Shown here: positions 53,808-63,132 of the stretch, one piece after another
How the letters are laid out: every line of letters starts with the position of its first letter
Position numbering within the stretch: the first letter of the stretch is position 1
Assembly (NCBI GenBank): GCA_002840735.1
Contig: PHBY01000002.1
Coordinates: 62,001 to 126,000 of the forward strand
DNA from: Chloroflexi bacterium HGW-Chloroflexi-2
GTDB taxonomy: Bacteria; Chloroflexota; Anaerolineae; Anaerolineales; Anaerolineaceae
Direction of reading: 5' to 3'
Length of the DNA: 64,000 nt
Made by a program: the position numbers and the translations under genes
Notes under the pieces: generated by a model
Databases searched by the model: none
The model's input: only the letters and a program-made list of their open reading frames with translations
Told to the model about the DNA's origin: nothing

Positions 53808-53808
53808 G

Positions 53809-53883
53809 TCGGGGCGAAAGGATTTGAACCTTCGACCTCTTGCACCCCATGCAAGCACGCTAGCCGGACTGCGCCACGCCCCG
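53809..53883 (-). tRNA. tRNA-Pro (anticodon GGG)
   Basis: The minus strand folds as a 75-base cloverleaf. The acceptor stem is CGGGGCG with CGCCCCG, the D-arm is GCGCAGTCCGGCTAGCGT, and the anticodon stem is CTTGC/GCAAG around ATGGGGT, so the anticodon is GGG. The T-arm is GAAGGTTCGAATCCTTT. The discriminator is A and CCA is not encoded. The GGG anticodon reads CCC/CCU proline codons. Confidence 0.97.
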
Positions 53884-53982: not shown

Positions 53983-54729
53983 TTATATTTGCGCATAGGC
54001 ATAAAATGTAGGTATGAATAGAATTCGAAATCCCTGAGTTCGTGCGTTGTCTTCTATTTCTTTATATTTTAGAATTTCTTCCACTGAGTACAGTTTTTCA
54101 AGATCACGCTGGGTGGTAGCCCATTCGGAATCAGCATTGATGGAATGGCTTTCAACCTTCTGGTGAAAACCGTAAATTCCCCAATGAATATTGGAGAACC
54201 CAGCTTGCATCAGCCAATTCTGTAAATTTCTCCCCGCTGACAGATTAACACCCTGATTTGATAGAGATGAATTTTGCATCTGTCCTAATTTATCAAGAGG
54301 AGAGGGGTAATCTATTCTGGATAGATAATCAGGTTCAGCGAAAATACAAATCCATCCTGTTTTATTTGTCACCCTGGACATTTCTTTAAGAATTCTTACC
54401 GGATTGTCTATCCAAAGCAGTAAATAATGGCAGAAACAAATATCAAAAAAATCGTTTTTGAGAGAGAGTGACAAACCATCTCCATTGATTAGACTTGCCT
54501 TAGAAGAATTTTGAATACTGTACTTAAGAATTTGAAAGTCAATGTCTAATCCAACTGTATTATGTCCCGATTCAGTAAATTCATCCAGAACTGCACAAGA
54601 TCCACAACCAACTTCCAAAATATTAGCTTGTAGAGGAAGTGATATTTGATTAATGATGAAATTTCTTGTTTCTCTTGTCCAGGATGCCTGTTGTTTATAG
54701 CGAGATGACCAGAATTGATAATCACTCAT
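53983..54729 (-). CDS. Class I SAM-dependent methyltransferase in the radical SAM cluster
   Basis: The 248-residue protein has the SAM-binding motif I ILEVGCGSCAVLDEF, motif II acidic GLDIDFQILKYS and the post-II run NGDGLSLSLKNDFFDICFCH, which fit a class I methyltransferase of the UbiE type. Its target is not evident. It overlaps the previous gene by four bases (ATGA), so it belongs to the same operon as the Cys-Ala tail protein and the radical SAM enzymes. A plausible role is methylation within the same modification pathway, but a separate task cannot be excluded. The N-terminus lacks a targeting signal. Confidence 0.82.
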   Translation of the reverse strand: MSDYQFWSSRYKQQASWTRETRNFIINQISLPLQANILEVGCGSCAVLDEFTESGHNTVGLDIDFQILKYSIQNSSKASLINGDGLSLSLKNDFFDICFCHYLLLWIDNPVRILKEMSRVTNKTGWICIFAEPDYLSRIDYPSPLDKLGQMQNSSLSNQGVNLSAGRNLQNWLMQAGFSNIHWGIYGFHQKVESHSINADSEWATTQRDLEKLYSVEEILKYKEIEDNARTQGFRILFIPTFYAYAQI

Positions 54730-55904
54730 TGACTTTTATTCAATAATTTTGCATTAGACCAAACCCATTCCCAGGAATCTGTCAGGAAATTTCCCAGCGG
54801 TTTATTGATGCCTTGAGCAGGCAAAGTATCACCATCCGGTTCTACATATAACCAGGCTTTCCCGGCACCTGCAGGAATGGTATCCCCTGAATCAATTTCT
54901 GCAGATACAGGATTGAATTGTGAATATGGAACAGGCAAATCCCAGTCCAAATTAAAGCCATATTCAGCAGCTTTATTGCGTAATTCGATGACTAGGTTCT
55001 CGAGATCGGGATTATTAAAACTTAATGAAATGTTTTCAACGCCAATTTGTTTGAATTCATCCATTATCTTAATATAATCATCTGCTGTTGATTTTTCGAT
55101 GGTTAAATGAACTGTTGTATGAATATCCTGCGGAATAATATCTCGGAGAGCTTTCCAGGATTGCTCATTTTCCGGTTCAAATGTAATTAATAAATGATCC
55201 AATCCGGAGTTTAATATTTGTTCCAGATATTCATTTTCTGACAGCTTTAGACCATCTGTTGCTAACCCGGTTACCATCCCAAGTTCTTCAGCCAGGATAA
55301 TGATTTCTATTAAATCCGGTCTTTGTGTAGGTTCACCCCCAGTAAAAATTACATGAGGAATGCCGTTTGACCAGGCTTTTTCGAGAATTAATTTCCATTC
55401 ATCAAATGATAATTCCTGCTTGACTCTGTCTTTTGGAGATAAACCAAGTTCGTCCTTGTTACTTAATTTATAAGTCAATGCACAATCCAATCGATATGGA
55501 GCAACCGGGAAATCGATATACGGTGTAGATCTTTCGAAATCCAGATAAGTTACCGGATCTAAATCTGGCGTATTGATCAAAGTGTCAATCCGGGTCATGA
55601 AATTATCAAAATCCTTGGTGACATCTGCATAAGTGATTTGATAGCGTTTGATGATCGATTCGATGACTTTTGGTTGGGGGGTTTGTTGGATTAAGTGATA
55701 AGCATATTCTGTAGCGGTTTGGTTAAGATGAAGAACAGTGCTGGCATTTATGATCAGCAAACCTTCTCCGCCTGGTTCAATCCTCAAGTGGAGACGATAT
55801 TGATAATCGCTGTCTTGTGGGGCTTGATAGTTATACAATCCAGGTGGTAAAACCTGTGCCTTATCAAAAAAAATCGATTTCAATCGTTTGACAATATTGC
55901 TCAT
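54726..55904 (-). CDS. Degenerate radical SAM paralogue lacking the iron-sulfur cysteines
   Basis: This is a clear paralogue of the adjacent enzyme: PqqD-like N-terminal domain (residues 20-110), then a radical SAM barrel with VIFTGGEPTQ retained. The cluster-binding Cys triad is replaced by Leu147, Asp151 and Gly154 (segment YKLSNKDELGLS). The C-terminal SPASM cysteines are also gone (DGDTLPAQGIN where the partner has DGDVLPCQSYY). Only one Cys (141) remains in the protein, so it cannot hold a 4Fe-4S cluster. I prefer the ATG at 55904, placed five bases after GGAGG. It probably serves as a non-catalytic partner or substrate-binding subunit. Confidence 0.85.
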   Translation of the reverse strand: MSNIVKRLKSIFFDKAQVLPPGLYNYQAPQDSDYQYRLHLRIEPGGEGLLIINASTVLHLNQTATEYAYHLIQQTPQPKVIESIIKRYQITYADVTKDFDNFMTRIDTLINTPDLDPVTYLDFERSTPYIDFPVAPYRLDCALTYKLSNKDELGLSPKDRVKQELSFDEWKLILEKAWSNGIPHVIFTGGEPTQRPDLIEIIILAEELGMVTGLATDGLKLSENEYLEQILNSGLDHLLITFEPENEQSWKALRDIIPQDIHTTVHLTIEKSTADDYIKIMDEFKQIGVENISLSFNNPDLENLVIELRNKAAEYGFNLDWDLPVPYSQFNPVSAEIDSGDTIPAGAGKAWLYVEPDGDTLPAQGINKPLGNFLTDSWEWVWSNAKLLNKSQ

Positions 55905-55944
55905 CATTTCCTCCATTAATCAGGAAAATTAATATTTATGCTCA

Positions 55945-57270
55945 TTAATTTGAAAGCGGACATCCTCCACCACATTCCTGAATAAGCTCACACTGATTGC
56001 ATTTTTGTGGAAGATTTTTTCTTTCACGAAGTTGTAATGATAATTCATGATTCCAGATGGAATTCCATGAATTCTTGAGTATATTTCCCAAGGGATAATA
56101 ATAAGATTGACAGGGAAGGACATCCCCATTGGGTTCAAGGCACATATTATACAAGGCTGCAGAACAACCCTTTACACCCAATTCGTGGGTAATGGGATTA
56201 AAGCGACAATAATGAGTGGGCGTATACCAGATTAATTTCTGGTTGTAATTGATGGTTTTTTCTTTGGCAATTTCCAATAAGGGAGAAAGCTGTGTTTCAG
56301 ATAAGCCTGTGCCAACGTCTTTGCCTTTGCCGGAATAAATCAATGCGTTCAAGCCAACCGTGGGTACACCTAATTCAGCCAGAAAATCGAGTGTCTGTGG
56401 AATTTCTCTATAATTAGTTTTCAACATGGTGGTATTGGTCATCATGTAGACTTCTTTTTGCAGAACATTTTTTATTCCTGACACTGTTTCTTCCCAGGCA
56501 CCTGGAAAATTGACCATCTGATCATGTATTTGTGAGTTTGAAGACTCCAATGTGATTTGAATGTGATCCAGACCAGCAGCAATTAGTTGATTGAGAAAGC
56601 TTTCATTTGCTAATTTGCGCCCATTTGTGTTAATTCCGGTAATTATTCCTTTGTTTTCGGCGTATTGAATGAGATCTGGTAAATATTCACAAAGCGTTGG
56701 TTCTCCACCTGTAAAAACGATATGCGGAATACTCAATTCCCAAATATTATCGATTACTTTAAACCAATCGTTTTCAGATAATGAAGCGAAATTGCGTGAA
56801 CGGGCATTGTAACAGTGTGTGCAATCATTATTGCATTGATAAGATAATGCAATATCCATCCGATATGGTGCACTGGGGGTGTGGGAGAATGGCAGATCCA
56901 TGTCCAGATCCAACTCGCATAATGGGCAACTTTCATCAGGATCTGTGATGACTTCCATCTGAGCCAAAAAAGATTTGGCATCTTCGACCAATTGATCATC
57001 TTCAATTTCAAAATGATTGGTTAATGAATTCAGTATCTCATTTTCCGTATATTCTGATAATTGCCAATACGCCATAGCGGTTGCACTTGAATTGAGGTGA
57101 TAAGCTCTGGCGGCATTAACTAACAACAATCCGTTACCATCATTTTCTACACGTAAGTGAATCCGATTCTTGCTATGATCTTTTTGTTGCTCAAAATGAT
57201 AGATACCAGTAGTTGGTAATTTGGGAGAATTTTTCCTTATTAATGGTTTTTGCCAGAAAGGAAAAGCCAT
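55945..57270 (-). CDS. Radical SAM/SPASM enzyme with N-terminal PqqD-like (RRE) domain
   Basis: The 441-residue protein has a PqqD-like recognition domain (about 20-110, ending before DPDESCPLCELD). The radical SAM barrel carries CNNDCTHC (Cys146, 150, 153) and GGEPTLCEYLPDLI. A C-terminal SPASM domain has GCSAALYNMCLEPNGDVLPC and the final cysteines 424, 427, 433 and 437 (CNQCELIQECGGGC). This set is typical of peptide-modifying enzymes that form thioether or other crosslinks. Its ATG overlaps the stop of the Cys-Ala tail gene (TAATG), so the two are translationally coupled. It is the best candidate to modify that tail. An ORF start at 57303 reads the tail in another frame and is rejected. 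Confidence 0.93.
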   Translation of the reverse strand: MAFPFWQKPLIRKNSPKLPTTGIYHFEQQKDHSKNRIHLRVENDGNGLLLVNAARAYHLNSSATAMAYWQLSEYTENEILNSLTNHFEIEDDQLVEDAKSFLAQMEVITDPDESCPLCELDLDMDLPFSHTPSAPYRMDIALSYQCNNDCTHCYNARSRNFASLSENDWFKVIDNIWELSIPHIVFTGGEPTLCEYLPDLIQYAENKGIITGINTNGRKLANESFLNQLIAAGLDHIQITLESSNSQIHDQMVNFPGAWEETVSGIKNVLQKEVYMMTNTTMLKTNYREIPQTLDFLAELGVPTVGLNALIYSGKGKDVGTGLSETQLSPLLEIAKEKTINYNQKLIWYTPTHYCRFNPITHELGVKGCSAALYNMCLEPNGDVLPCQSYYYPLGNILKNSWNSIWNHELSLQLRERKNLPQKCNQCELIQECGGGCPLSN

Positions 57271-58964
57271 TAGCGTCCACCTCCAGCACAGGCACAGGCA
57301 CAACCTGCACAGGCGCAGGCACAGGCACAGGAGCCTCCTCCACCACCTCCCCTGGATGATCGACCTGAAGATGAAGTGGATTTGGGAACTGGATTGGTCT
57401 TATTTGTCACGCCACTGGTGAAGTTGGTCAGATTTCCTACAACTCCCGAGGCAAAAGACTGAACACCGTTGGTGATGGAAGCAGCAAAATCCGCTCCTGG
57501 TAAACTCGGAAGATTGATAGTCGTTTTTCCTGATCCGGATGGCATGGGAGAAGCATCCACTTTGCCAAAAGTTGGAGTGCTTGAAGTCGTTGGTCTGACC
57601 ATTGGGTCATAACGCCACCACCAGGTGGGGATAAAAACAGGGCCTGATCCGAATGATTCTTTTGTACGGCCGTCAAAATTCTTATCCAGCATCGTCCAAT
57701 CTAGATTTTCATCATATTTTTCAGATTTGACTTCTGGTGTCTGAGCTGATTCAACCTGATTCCAGGCTTTTTCCATAATATCTTTATAAAAGGCAATTGA
57801 TTCTTTGCGACTGAATCCTTTCATCTTTTTTGATACAGAGCTGACTAAATTTATGATCATTGATTGAAGGTCAGTTTTTGTTTCTCTATTGTCTTTCTGC
57901 ATCGCATTTAAAAATTCAATTTCGTACGGTTGTAAATCGTCCGGCTTTGGATCATATACTTTTATTTTTAAAGGATCTCTTTTAGAAACCTCGGCTGCTC
58001 CTTTTTTAAGAACACCGAATAAGATCATCATTAATACTTTATCCATAGGCTGTTCCATCAAAATCGCGGCTTCAACAGCTGTTAACCCTCTTTTAATTCC
58101 ATGACCCTCCACGGATATTTTTGGCGGGAGGTATTTGAGTTTGCGCTTTTTTGCTCCCACCGTGGCTGAATAAATTGTCAATGCAAAGAATGCGAATATA
58201 CCCAGACAAATCAGTCCCGAGCAGATTGCATCAGAGTCGAAGGTGATAGATGGAGCCTTTACAATTTGAGTTTCCGGCACTAATCTGGCAGGAAAACTGG
58301 CACCAAATTTATATTGGGTGTAAGAATTGGCATTCGGGCTATTCCACTGGTAGTAGATACCTCCCACGTTGTCTAAACCACTTATAGGAGTAGAATCTCC
58401 AGGCCAGCCTTGTGGTGTGTGGTAGCGAGGTTCATTTTCTGTAAGTCCGACGGGAAGATAAAGTGTCACAGTCATGTCAGTGCTGCCGGCAATAAATTCC
58501 GGTCCAAACCAGGTTGGAGAAATTTCAAAACTTGCGTAGTCTTCGTCTGCTTCCACTTCGGATGGATACAAAGATTTATTGATTGTCCCGACAAAAACAT
58601 GCAGGGTGCCTCTTTGTCCAGCTGGTATAGCCTGATTTCCCAGGTCAACCATGATGCCAATATCAATATAATCAGATTTTTTAATACTATCTACAGGTAA
58701 TCCGTTAATATCCGCTGTAATACTATTCAATACATAATTATTGTTTGGTAGACCAATATCGACAATATCAATTGGGTGTGCGCCAGGTTGATTTACCAGA
58801 TCAAAATAGTATTCAATCGATAGAGAACCGTCTTCATTTACAAAGACATCCATGGTTTGCTTTTCGACAGCAAAATAATAATCCTGTGCATGAACAACAC
58901 CAGAATTACCTGCCAACATTAACAGGATTAATAAAATACTGAATAATTTAATTTTTCTAATCAT
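57270..58964 (-). CDS. DUF2207-like membrane protein with C-terminal Gly-rich and (Cys-Ala)n tail
   Basis: A cleavable signal peptide (residues 1-26, ending VHAQ) is followed by a β-rich extracellular domain (to about 240), one membrane helix (about 245-268) ending with KKRK, and a cytoplasmic part. The latter has a helical domain, a Ser/Thr/Pro-rich linker and a Gly-rich stretch. The tail holds cysteines at 546, 548, 550, 552, 555, 557 and 559, alternating with Ala and ending GGGR. The DUF2207-like assignment is by layout and segments such as DVFVNEDGSLSIEYYFDL. The predicted topology puts the tail in the cytoplasm, where the coupled radical SAM enzyme acts. GGAGG inside the tail codons is the ribosome site of the next gene. 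The biological role is unknown. Confidence 0.88.
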   Translation of the reverse strand: MIRKIKLFSILLILLMLAGNSGVVHAQDYYFAVEKQTMDVFVNEDGSLSIEYYFDLVNQPGAHPIDIVDIGLPNNNYVLNSITADINGLPVDSIKKSDYIDIGIMVDLGNQAIPAGQRGTLHVFVGTINKSLYPSEVEADEDYASFEISPTWFGPEFIAGSTDMTVTLYLPVGLTENEPRYHTPQGWPGDSTPISGLDNVGGIYYQWNSPNANSYTQYKFGASFPARLVPETQIVKAPSITFDSDAICSGLICLGIFAFFALTIYSATVGAKKRKLKYLPPKISVEGHGIKRGLTAVEAAILMEQPMDKVLMMILFGVLKKGAAEVSKRDPLKIKVYDPKPDDLQPYEIEFLNAMQKDNRETKTDLQSMIINLVSSVSKKMKGFSRKESIAFYKDIMEKAWNQVESAQTPEVKSEKYDENLDWTMLDKNFDGRTKESFGSGPVFIPTWWWRYDPMVRPTTSSTPTFGKVDASPMPSGSGKTTINLPSLPGADFAASITNGVQSFASGVVGNLTNFTSGVTNKTNPVPKSTSSSGRSSRGGGGGGSCACACACAGCACACAGGGR

Positions 58965-58988
58965 ATTTATTTCCTTAAATCCTGAAGG

Positions 58989-59345
58989 TTACCATTTTGG
59001 TTCTTCGGTTAATTGGTAGGTTGTGTTGCAGTACGGGCAGGAGACCATTGGGGCTCCATTTACCAGGGAAATTGAGTCCTTCGTCAAAATACCGCCACAT
59101 TGCTGGCATTTGAGTGATTCGAGGGATACATTTCCAGGAAGATCGACATTGAGGGTGACATTGGTAGTATTGGACTCAATTTTCTTTTTTCGAGTTACAA
59201 AGAAAATAATTCCAAACGCAACGAGACAAAGAATTGCACCAACCAACAAATTTCCAACCTGTCCTTGCGGACTGAATGCACTCAATATAAATAAGACTCC
59301 AAATAGAATCAGAATACCTGAAGCAAGATATGCAATGATTTTCAT
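58989..59345 (-). CDS. Small membrane protein with C-terminal zinc ribbon
   Basis: The 118-residue protein has two membrane helices (about residues 5-25 and 32-52) followed by a charged TRKKK and a β-rich part with a zinc ribbon (KCQQCGG and SCPYCNT). The C-terminus is predicted to be in the cytoplasm. It is the first gene of the radical SAM cluster, 24 bases ahead of the Cys-Ala tail gene, behind a GGAGG site. A chaperone or scaffold role in the modification pathway is inference; the protein itself is not recognised. Confidence 0.75.
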   Translation of the reverse strand: MKIIAYLASGILILFGVLFILSAFSPQGQVGNLLVGAILCLVAFGIIFFVTRKKKIESNTTNVTLNVDLPGNVSLESLKCQQCGGILTKDSISLVNGAPMVSCPYCNTTYQLTEEPKW

Positions 59346-62710: not shown

Positions 62711-62735
62711 CGATCTGGATGTGGATAAATAGTAG

Positions 62736-63132
62736 TGGAGATGGCGGGAATCGAACCCGCGTCCGAAAGAATTGATCAGCAGATATCTACGAGCGTAGTT
62801 AGTTGATCTTTTTGCAGCTACACAAGACAACCAACAAAACTAGTGTAGTGCTATCTGCTCAGACCCGAAAGTCCTCTTTCATATTTCCCGCAGATTGAAA
62901 TATGGCACCCTGACTTTGTGTCGCCTATTCTTCCACCGGTCAGGTAGCGGGGTAGATAGACGTGGTTCACAAAGGAACCATTCGGCTACTAGTCTCTCAC
63001 TAGGCAGCGAGAGGCATAGCAGCGTACGTGTTTGTGCGATTGGCACTTGTTTTTTTGTACTGATTTATCGAGGTCGGTACCTCTCGGCTCGCAATCTGGG
63101 ACCAGCCTCTCCCGTCGAAGCCTGTCATCCCC
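62736..63132 (-). ncRNA. ssrA: tmRNA
   Basis: The minus strand begins GGGGATGACAGGCTTCGACG and ends with the T-arm GGTTCGATTCC and CATCTCCA, so the acceptor stem GGGGATG/CATCTCC closes the tRNA-like end. The tag reading frame runs from GCC at 63044 to TAG at 63000 and gives ANRTNTYAAMPLAA, a proper resume codon and a hydrophobic tail for proteases. The 3' CCA is not encoded. About 397 bases, normal for tmRNA. Confidence 0.97.

Follow-up and report, generated by a model that had tools for sequence, protein, structure and literature searches.

We propose that one gene cluster in the window, i.e., in the whole stretch of 64,000 nucleotides that was analysed, encodes a RiPP-like system in which a membrane protein retains a cytoplasmic Cys-rich tail that would be modified in situ by its radical SAM partner. 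We put the probability of this reading at about 0.72. That the enzyme acts on the tail at all is very likely, and its target is probably the C-terminus of a full-sized membrane protein, not a small throw-away peptide. What can be taken as established at the level of sequence is the anatomy of the locus, an extreme constraint on the protein sequence of the tail, the strict pairing of the tail with the enzyme, and the loss of the cluster motifs in a twin of the enzyme.

Five ORFs are located on the minus strand at 53983-59345, as tightly packed and at the same coordinates as reported by the initial annotation. In order of transcription, they encode a zinc-ribbon membrane protein, the tail protein, the radical SAM enzyme, its degenerate twin and a methyltransferase. 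The features are as follows:

58989..59345, minus strand: zinc-ribbon small membrane protein, 118 aa, two hydrophobic segments, zinc ribbon at the C-terminus (ORF)
57270..58964, minus strand: tail protein of the DUF2207 family, 564 aa (ORF, topology, model, profile match)
57330..57512, minus strand: linker before the tail, with a predicted helix at residues ~491-508 (AlphaFold model)
57273..57329, minus strand: C-terminal tail CACACACAGCACACAGGGR, residues 546-564, the proposed modification target (invariance, conservation)
55945..57270, minus strand: intact radical SAM/SPASM enzyme with an N-terminal PqqD-like RRE, 441 aa
56956..57123, minus strand: PqqD-like RRE domain of the enzyme (Pfam PqqD, E 2.5e-4)
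56812..56835, minus strand: radical SAM motif CNNDCTHC of the enzyme (CxxxCxxC)
55987..56166, minus strand: SPASM domain of the enzyme with auxiliary-cluster cysteines (Pfam SPASM, E 1.7e-10)
54726..55916, minus strand: degenerate radical SAM twin (Pfam, orthologues, Foldseek)
53983..54729, minus strand: class I SAM-dependent methyltransferase (Pfam Methyltransf_11, E 7.8e-17)

The zinc-ribbon and tail genes are separated by 24 bases, the enzyme and twin genes by 28. Both couplings described earlier can be seen in the sequence: the stop codon of the tail gene and the ATG of the enzyme (57270) overlap as TAATG, and the twin and methyltransferase genes overlap as ATGA. Because its ATG overlaps with the tail-gene stop, the enzyme is taken to comprise 441 aa. 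None of the five operon proteins reaches an NCBIfam cut-off. No small Cys-rich ORF besides the tail was found on the coding strand of the operon, and a hidden small precursor peptide was thus rejected as the substrate. An interpretation as anti-phage defence was also rejected, since the viperin and methyltransferase scores are generic only. Downstream of the five-gene group and outside of it, a tRNA-Pro is located at 53808-53883. Elsewhere in the window, a tmRNA gene with the tag ANRTNTYAAMPLAA is found on the minus strand at 62735-63132.

The tail of the window protein reads SCACACACAGCACACAGGGR. Its seven Cys-Ala units had been counted correctly by the initial annotation, which missed that a Gly break divides them into four and three and that the tail ends in GGGR. 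The last ten residues, CACACAGGGR, are identical in 60 out of 60 Cys-Ala tails from Chloroflexota genomes, and the number of Cys-Ala units upstream of them differs slightly. Synonymous codons drift freely in these 60 tails, the terminal Arg using all six codons, and thus it is the protein and not the DNA that is kept constant, the terminal Arg included. When 57 proteins were aligned (median pairwise identity 43%), the columns of the tail had a mean conservation of 0.95, against 0.64 in the cytoplasmic domain, 0.54 in the ectodomain and 0.53 in the linker; outside the tail, values range from 0.34 to 0.64 across the protein. Reversed tail patterns, which served as a control, gave zero matches. 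Invariance, codon drift and the reversed-pattern controls together lead us to reject chance or a frame artefact as an explanation of the tail. A single match to the tail pattern (G592, L139) is spurious and does not represent a C-terminal tail.

The same linker-plus-tail module is also carried by a protein unrelated to the DUF2207 protein. At L075:990-4409 (G048:C353), a 1139-aa protein, a Ser/Thr kinase-AAA ATPase, carries the linker and a CACACACAGCACACAGGGR tail as an in-frame fusion, with an enzyme gene located downstream. The tag may truly have been transferred here, or the fusion may stem from a rearrangement, the genome being fragmentary. It is possible that the linker represents a recognition ("leader-like") segment.

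To follow tail and enzyme across genomes, whole-genome searches for the tail protein and the enzyme were carried out in 298 Anaerolineae genomes and the loci were inspected. These genomes are mostly metagenome-assembled and belong to one phylum (Chloroflexota); relatives among them are not independent. The Cys-Ala tail occurs in 39 of the 298 genomes, and all 39 encode the intact RRE-radical SAM-SPASM enzyme (E <= 1e-100). Among the other 259 genomes, 255 have neither tail nor enzyme and four have the enzyme alone, in three cases at or near a contig edge (the exception is G005). The Fisher p-value of the pairing is 1e-44, to be read as a yardstick only, since the genomes are related. A genome with a tail alone was not found among the 298 for either of the two tail types, the second of which is described below. 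One genome from another class, G307 (L138), bears tail and enzyme as well. Within the same families, both can be jointly absent (G253 in f1; G111, G130, G179 and G223 in f2), and thus their presence does not merely follow phylogeny. The suggestion that the enzymes act on the Cys-Ala tail of a full-sized protein is in good agreement with this comparative evidence.

In the fetched stretches that hold both genes, taking both tail types together, these lie on the same strand in 60 out of 60 cases and within 600 bp of each other in 53. A wider spacing of 1.3-4.5 kb within one cluster is seen in families f23 and f52. The tail gene is separate from the enzyme in f8 and f15, and the canonical tail gene and the enzyme occupy different genome sites in G048, G100 and G173; in such split loci, the enzyme is located elsewhere in the genome or the stretch ends at a contig edge. 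Family f52 (L062, L064-L066) exhibits a tandem pair of tail proteins together with an intact radical SAM gene and a second one that is degenerate in a different way.

The enzyme itself carries the features of a SPASM radical SAM maturase, namely the CxxxCxxC motif, a radical SAM domain, the SPASM cysteines and a PqqD-like RRE. The Radical_SAM (E 4.8e-23) and SPASM matches in Pfam are both well over the cut-off. The PqqD-like domain, which had been part of the initial annotation, is detected slightly under it (21.7 bits against 23.4). All full-length orthologues of the intact enzyme contain CxxxCxxC. None of the named NCBIfam radical SAM maturase families (SkfB, AlbA, ACGX, HxsC, GeoRSP and others) was reached, with a best score of 136 bits against a cut-off of 500; the best NCBIfam profiles are those of the heme-pathway SPASM enzymes NirJ2 and AhbD, far under their cut-offs. 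Among its relatives with a known structure are SkfB and PqqE, which are peptide maturases, as well as 5v1q (SuiB) and 5wgg, which we take to be CteB.

A second tail type was found in distant homologues of the tail protein, which end in approximately twelve His-Ser-Ala-Cys-like units. By pattern search, this (CHSAC)n tail occurs in 32 of the 298 genomes, and an enzyme of the same PqqD-SPASM family is present in each of the 32. Two further genomes have the (CHSAC)n-type enzyme and no tail match, and here the contig begins at or just before the enzyme. For both types, the enzyme-only genomes other than G005 are either fragmentary or interrupted by a contig edge. Widespread tails without a radical SAM gene, which had been named as evidence against the proposal, were thus not observed for either type (enzyme in 39/39 and 32/32 tail genomes). 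The (CHSAC)n enzyme shares about 30% identity with that of the window; its PqqD-like domain passes the cut-off with 32.8 bits. The membrane proteins of the two tail types are homologous over ectodomain, TM segment and cytoplasmic domain (hhalign E 7.5e-34). An ordinary DUF2207 gene, whose product has a Gly-rich end free of Cys, is also present in some of these loci. Sequence comparison thereby indicates that two different Cys-rich tails replace the Gly-rich end of DUF2207 proteins, each tied to one enzyme family. In 14 (CHSAC)n loci, e.g., at L082:3322-4503, the enzyme gene is followed by a conserved gene whose coiled-coil-like product has about 390 aa.

The tail protein consists of a signal-like segment (residues 1-19), a beta-rich ectodomain, one TM segment (approximately 246-264) followed by a charge of +5, a cytoplasmic helical domain, a Gly/Ser-rich linker and the Cys-Ala tail. 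From the positive charge after the TM segment, the C-terminus is predicted to be cytoplasmic, on the same side as the enzyme, which supports the earlier prediction. The AlphaFold model concurs, with a TM helix at 244-268 and a disordered tail, although it is a poor model (mean pLDDT 52.7) with only four sequences behind it. Some members of f52 may have two TM segments, and their topology would then be ambiguous. The description as "DUF2207-like" does not hold for the single window sequence in Pfam (E 0.15, sub-threshold), but it does hold by profile comparison with bona fide DUF2207 proteins (hhalign E 1.2e-12), which places the protein in the PF09972 / PF20990 homology group. The (CHSAC)n protein behaves in the same way (hhalign E 9.1e-7; single-sequence Pfam match below cut-off). 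For the ectodomain (58236-58886 of the window), Foldseek gave weak matches to ribophorin I/Ost1 and to N-domains of M1 aminopeptidases, based on a low-confidence model. An 878-aa protein at L067:5942-8578 (G263:C13) combines the ectodomain of the tail protein with an apparent FGE-sulfatase domain (by eye) and has no Cys tail; an MNIO-family match is located about 4 kb from its gene (G263:C13:299229).

The remaining genes are more variable. As proposed initially, the twin is a cluster-less radical SAM paralogue, and it is conserved in this dead state. In the window, it matches Pfam Radical_SAM alone and has no cluster cysteines; an RRE-like N-terminus and a GGEP motif are kept, while CxxxCxxC and all SPASM cysteines are lost. 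None of 33 twin orthologues has CxxxCxxC or the SPASM cysteine set, all 33 retain the GGE motif, and the RRE-like N-terminus is retained in the four twins aligned. The best Foldseek matches of the twin are SkfB (top), SuiB and PqqE. Families f23, f37 and f52 carry another degenerate copy instead, which has lost CxxxCxxC and GGE and kept the SPASM cysteines. The two groups of dead twins each form one clade, and they cluster together, but on long branches. In G192 (L177, G192:C35:1-11000), the dead twin has outlasted the tail gene and the intact enzyme; next to the twin, a short ORF holds a stretch that resembles the start of the zinc-ribbon protein, which suggests a deletion.

The methyltransferase, confirmed by its Methyltransf_11 match, was found (E <= 1e-18) in 31 genomes: 27 with the Cys-Ala tail, three with the enzyme and no tail match, and one with neither (G013). 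It is absent from genomes that have (CHSAC)n only. In f23 and f52, a copy that has diverged further is found next to the tail genes. The zinc-ribbon protein is conserved beside the tail gene, and a zinc-ribbon membrane protein of similar architecture also occurs in (CHSAC)n loci. Twin and methyltransferase are missing from many loci. Since these two genes are not universal, the predicted core of the system is the membrane protein plus the intact enzyme, with twin, methyltransferase and zinc-ribbon protein as accessories.

We envisage that this two-component core modifies the membrane protein's own Cys-rich C-terminal tail, which would stay attached and face the cytoplasm. The RRE of the enzyme may dock on the conserved linker beside the tail; the RREs of related enzymes attach to a segment adjoining the core that is modified (PMC8326336). 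The SAM cluster would yield a 5'-deoxyadenosyl radical, hydrogen would be abstracted from tail residues, and the Cys sulfurs, possibly held at the auxiliary SPASM cluster, would be joined to neighbouring residues. Since the Cys:Ala ratio is close to 1:1 in both tail types, Cys-to-Ala thioethers appear to be the most likely product of this joining, and we give thioethers an even chance. Among known enzymes, the sactisynthase RumMC2 makes Cys-to-Ala Calpha thioethers (PMC8188230), and QhpD makes Cys-to-Asp/Glu thioethers in a protein subunit (PMC7876137). The dead twin could act as a non-catalytic, RRE-bearing partner that holds substrate or enzyme. The methyltransferase would methylate only tails of the Cys-Ala/GGGR type, with a thiol or the carboxylate of the invariant C-terminal Arg as possible acceptors. 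The complete picture, i.e., permanent sulfur cross-links in a cytoplasmic tail via a portable linker-plus-Cys-tail tag (in CACACA and CHSAC versions, and kinase-fused in one genome) with the dead twin as a dedicated substrate-holding subunit, is tentative and falls somewhat short of even odds.

The enzyme may also act on the tail without forming cross-links, by epimerisation of alternate residues or another Calpha/Cbeta oxidation. Alternate-residue epimerisation is known for the radical SAM epimerase PoyD, EpeE epimerises single residues (PMC8326336), and the Cys/Ala alternation of CACACA would suit a two-residue step. However, the (CHSAC)n tail has no two-residue alternation and yet is accompanied by the same enzyme family; proteusin epimerases lack extra clusters and have a C-terminal RRE, and the invariance of Cys in both tails points to sulfur chemistry. 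We regard this explanation as unlikely.

Modification of a tail that remains in place also has to be weighed against release. The membrane protein could be a giant leader whose modified tail is cut off as a conventional RiPP, which would follow the usual logic of an RRE binding the leader and a Cys-rich C-terminal core being modified. Such a product has little chance in our judgement: the loci have no conserved protease or transporter in common, the domains of the membrane protein show the conservation between families that a functional protein would have, and the tail is predicted on the cytoplasmic side. It is similarly improbable that the tail serves, unmodified, as a metal or redox site and that the enzyme's substrate is something else. 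Seven to thirteen cysteines could indeed bind soft metals, heme-pathway enzymes are among the best profile matches of the enzyme, and the neighbouring protein has a zinc ribbon; but the enzyme accompanies two quite different tails with no exception in the sample, it bears a peptide-binding PqqD-like domain, and the operon offers no other small substrate ORF. The action of an MNIO enzyme, suggested by the frequent adjacency of MNIO genes to TIGR04222 membrane proteins with Cys-rich tails (PMC12452194), by a sub-threshold TIGR04222 match of the (CHSAC)n protein and by one MNIO gene elsewhere in the window genome, is largely refuted and has a negligible probability, because such a gene is absent from 19 of the 24 tail-bearing genomes searched, all of which have the radical SAM enzyme.

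If in-situ modification by the radical SAM partner is true, RiPP chemistry would reach beyond small secreted peptides and become a permanent component of full-sized membrane proteins. The system supplies a test set of two near-invariant tails, one enzyme family and dozens of natural variants, and it makes the function of the dead radical SAM partners, which are conserved and have decayed in different ways, accessible to experiment.

Several known systems share parts of this layout. In quinohemoprotein amine dehydrogenase, QhpD provides a parallel in that its thioethers lie in a polypeptide, QhpC, that is kept in a functional protein (PMC7876137). QhpC differs in being a small subunit with a removable N-terminal leader, Asp/Glu acceptors, no membrane anchor and no repeat tail. 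The maturases of sactipeptides (SkfB, AlbA, RumMC) and ranthipeptides (CteB, PapB) have the RRE, the radical SAM core, the SPASM domain and a Cys-containing substrate in common with our enzyme. Their substrates are short and leader-bearing, whereas the sole candidate substrate here is a 564-aa membrane protein, and the window enzyme stays far under all named family cut-offs. In repeat-motif systems (ACGX, His-Xaa-Ser, TvgA/TvgB), a SPASM enzyme is presumed or has been shown to target a short repeated motif, e.g., TvgB modifies TVGG repeats (PMC9062424). These act on precursor peptides with other motifs; the rSAM_ACGX and HxsC models match weakly, under the cut-off.

The closest precedent is the proposal of Antoine et al. 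2025 that the Cys-rich tails of TIGR04222 membrane proteins are MNIO substrates (PMC12452194). Our literature search found no paper linking DUF2207 to radical SAM enzymes; the statement of the initial annotation that no characterised example is known has to be qualified by the TIGR04222/MNIO proposal. Both systems have an integral membrane protein, up to hundreds of residues long, with an unstructured Cys-rich C-terminus and a RiPP-type enzyme encoded adjacent to it. The TIGR04222 model gives no match to the window protein and is not reached by the (CHSAC)n protein (33.1 bits, E 4e-8, against a cut-off of 43); no other NCBIfam model passes its cut-off on either tail protein. Together with the earlier proposal, our data suggest that DUF2207/TIGR04222-like proteins have repeatedly recruited RiPP enzymes for a Cys-rich end, which may give this widespread family a function. 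TIGR04222 tails are Ser/Gly-rich with interspersed Cys and predicted to be periplasmic, and about a third of the genomes have no MNIO; in contrast, we find a radical SAM enzyme, a near-invariant tail, a predicted cytoplasmic location and a strict association. That RiPP enzymes may act on Cys-rich ends of membrane proteins has thus already been proposed, and what appears to be new here is the enzyme class, the far stricter pairing and the opposite predicted side of the membrane.
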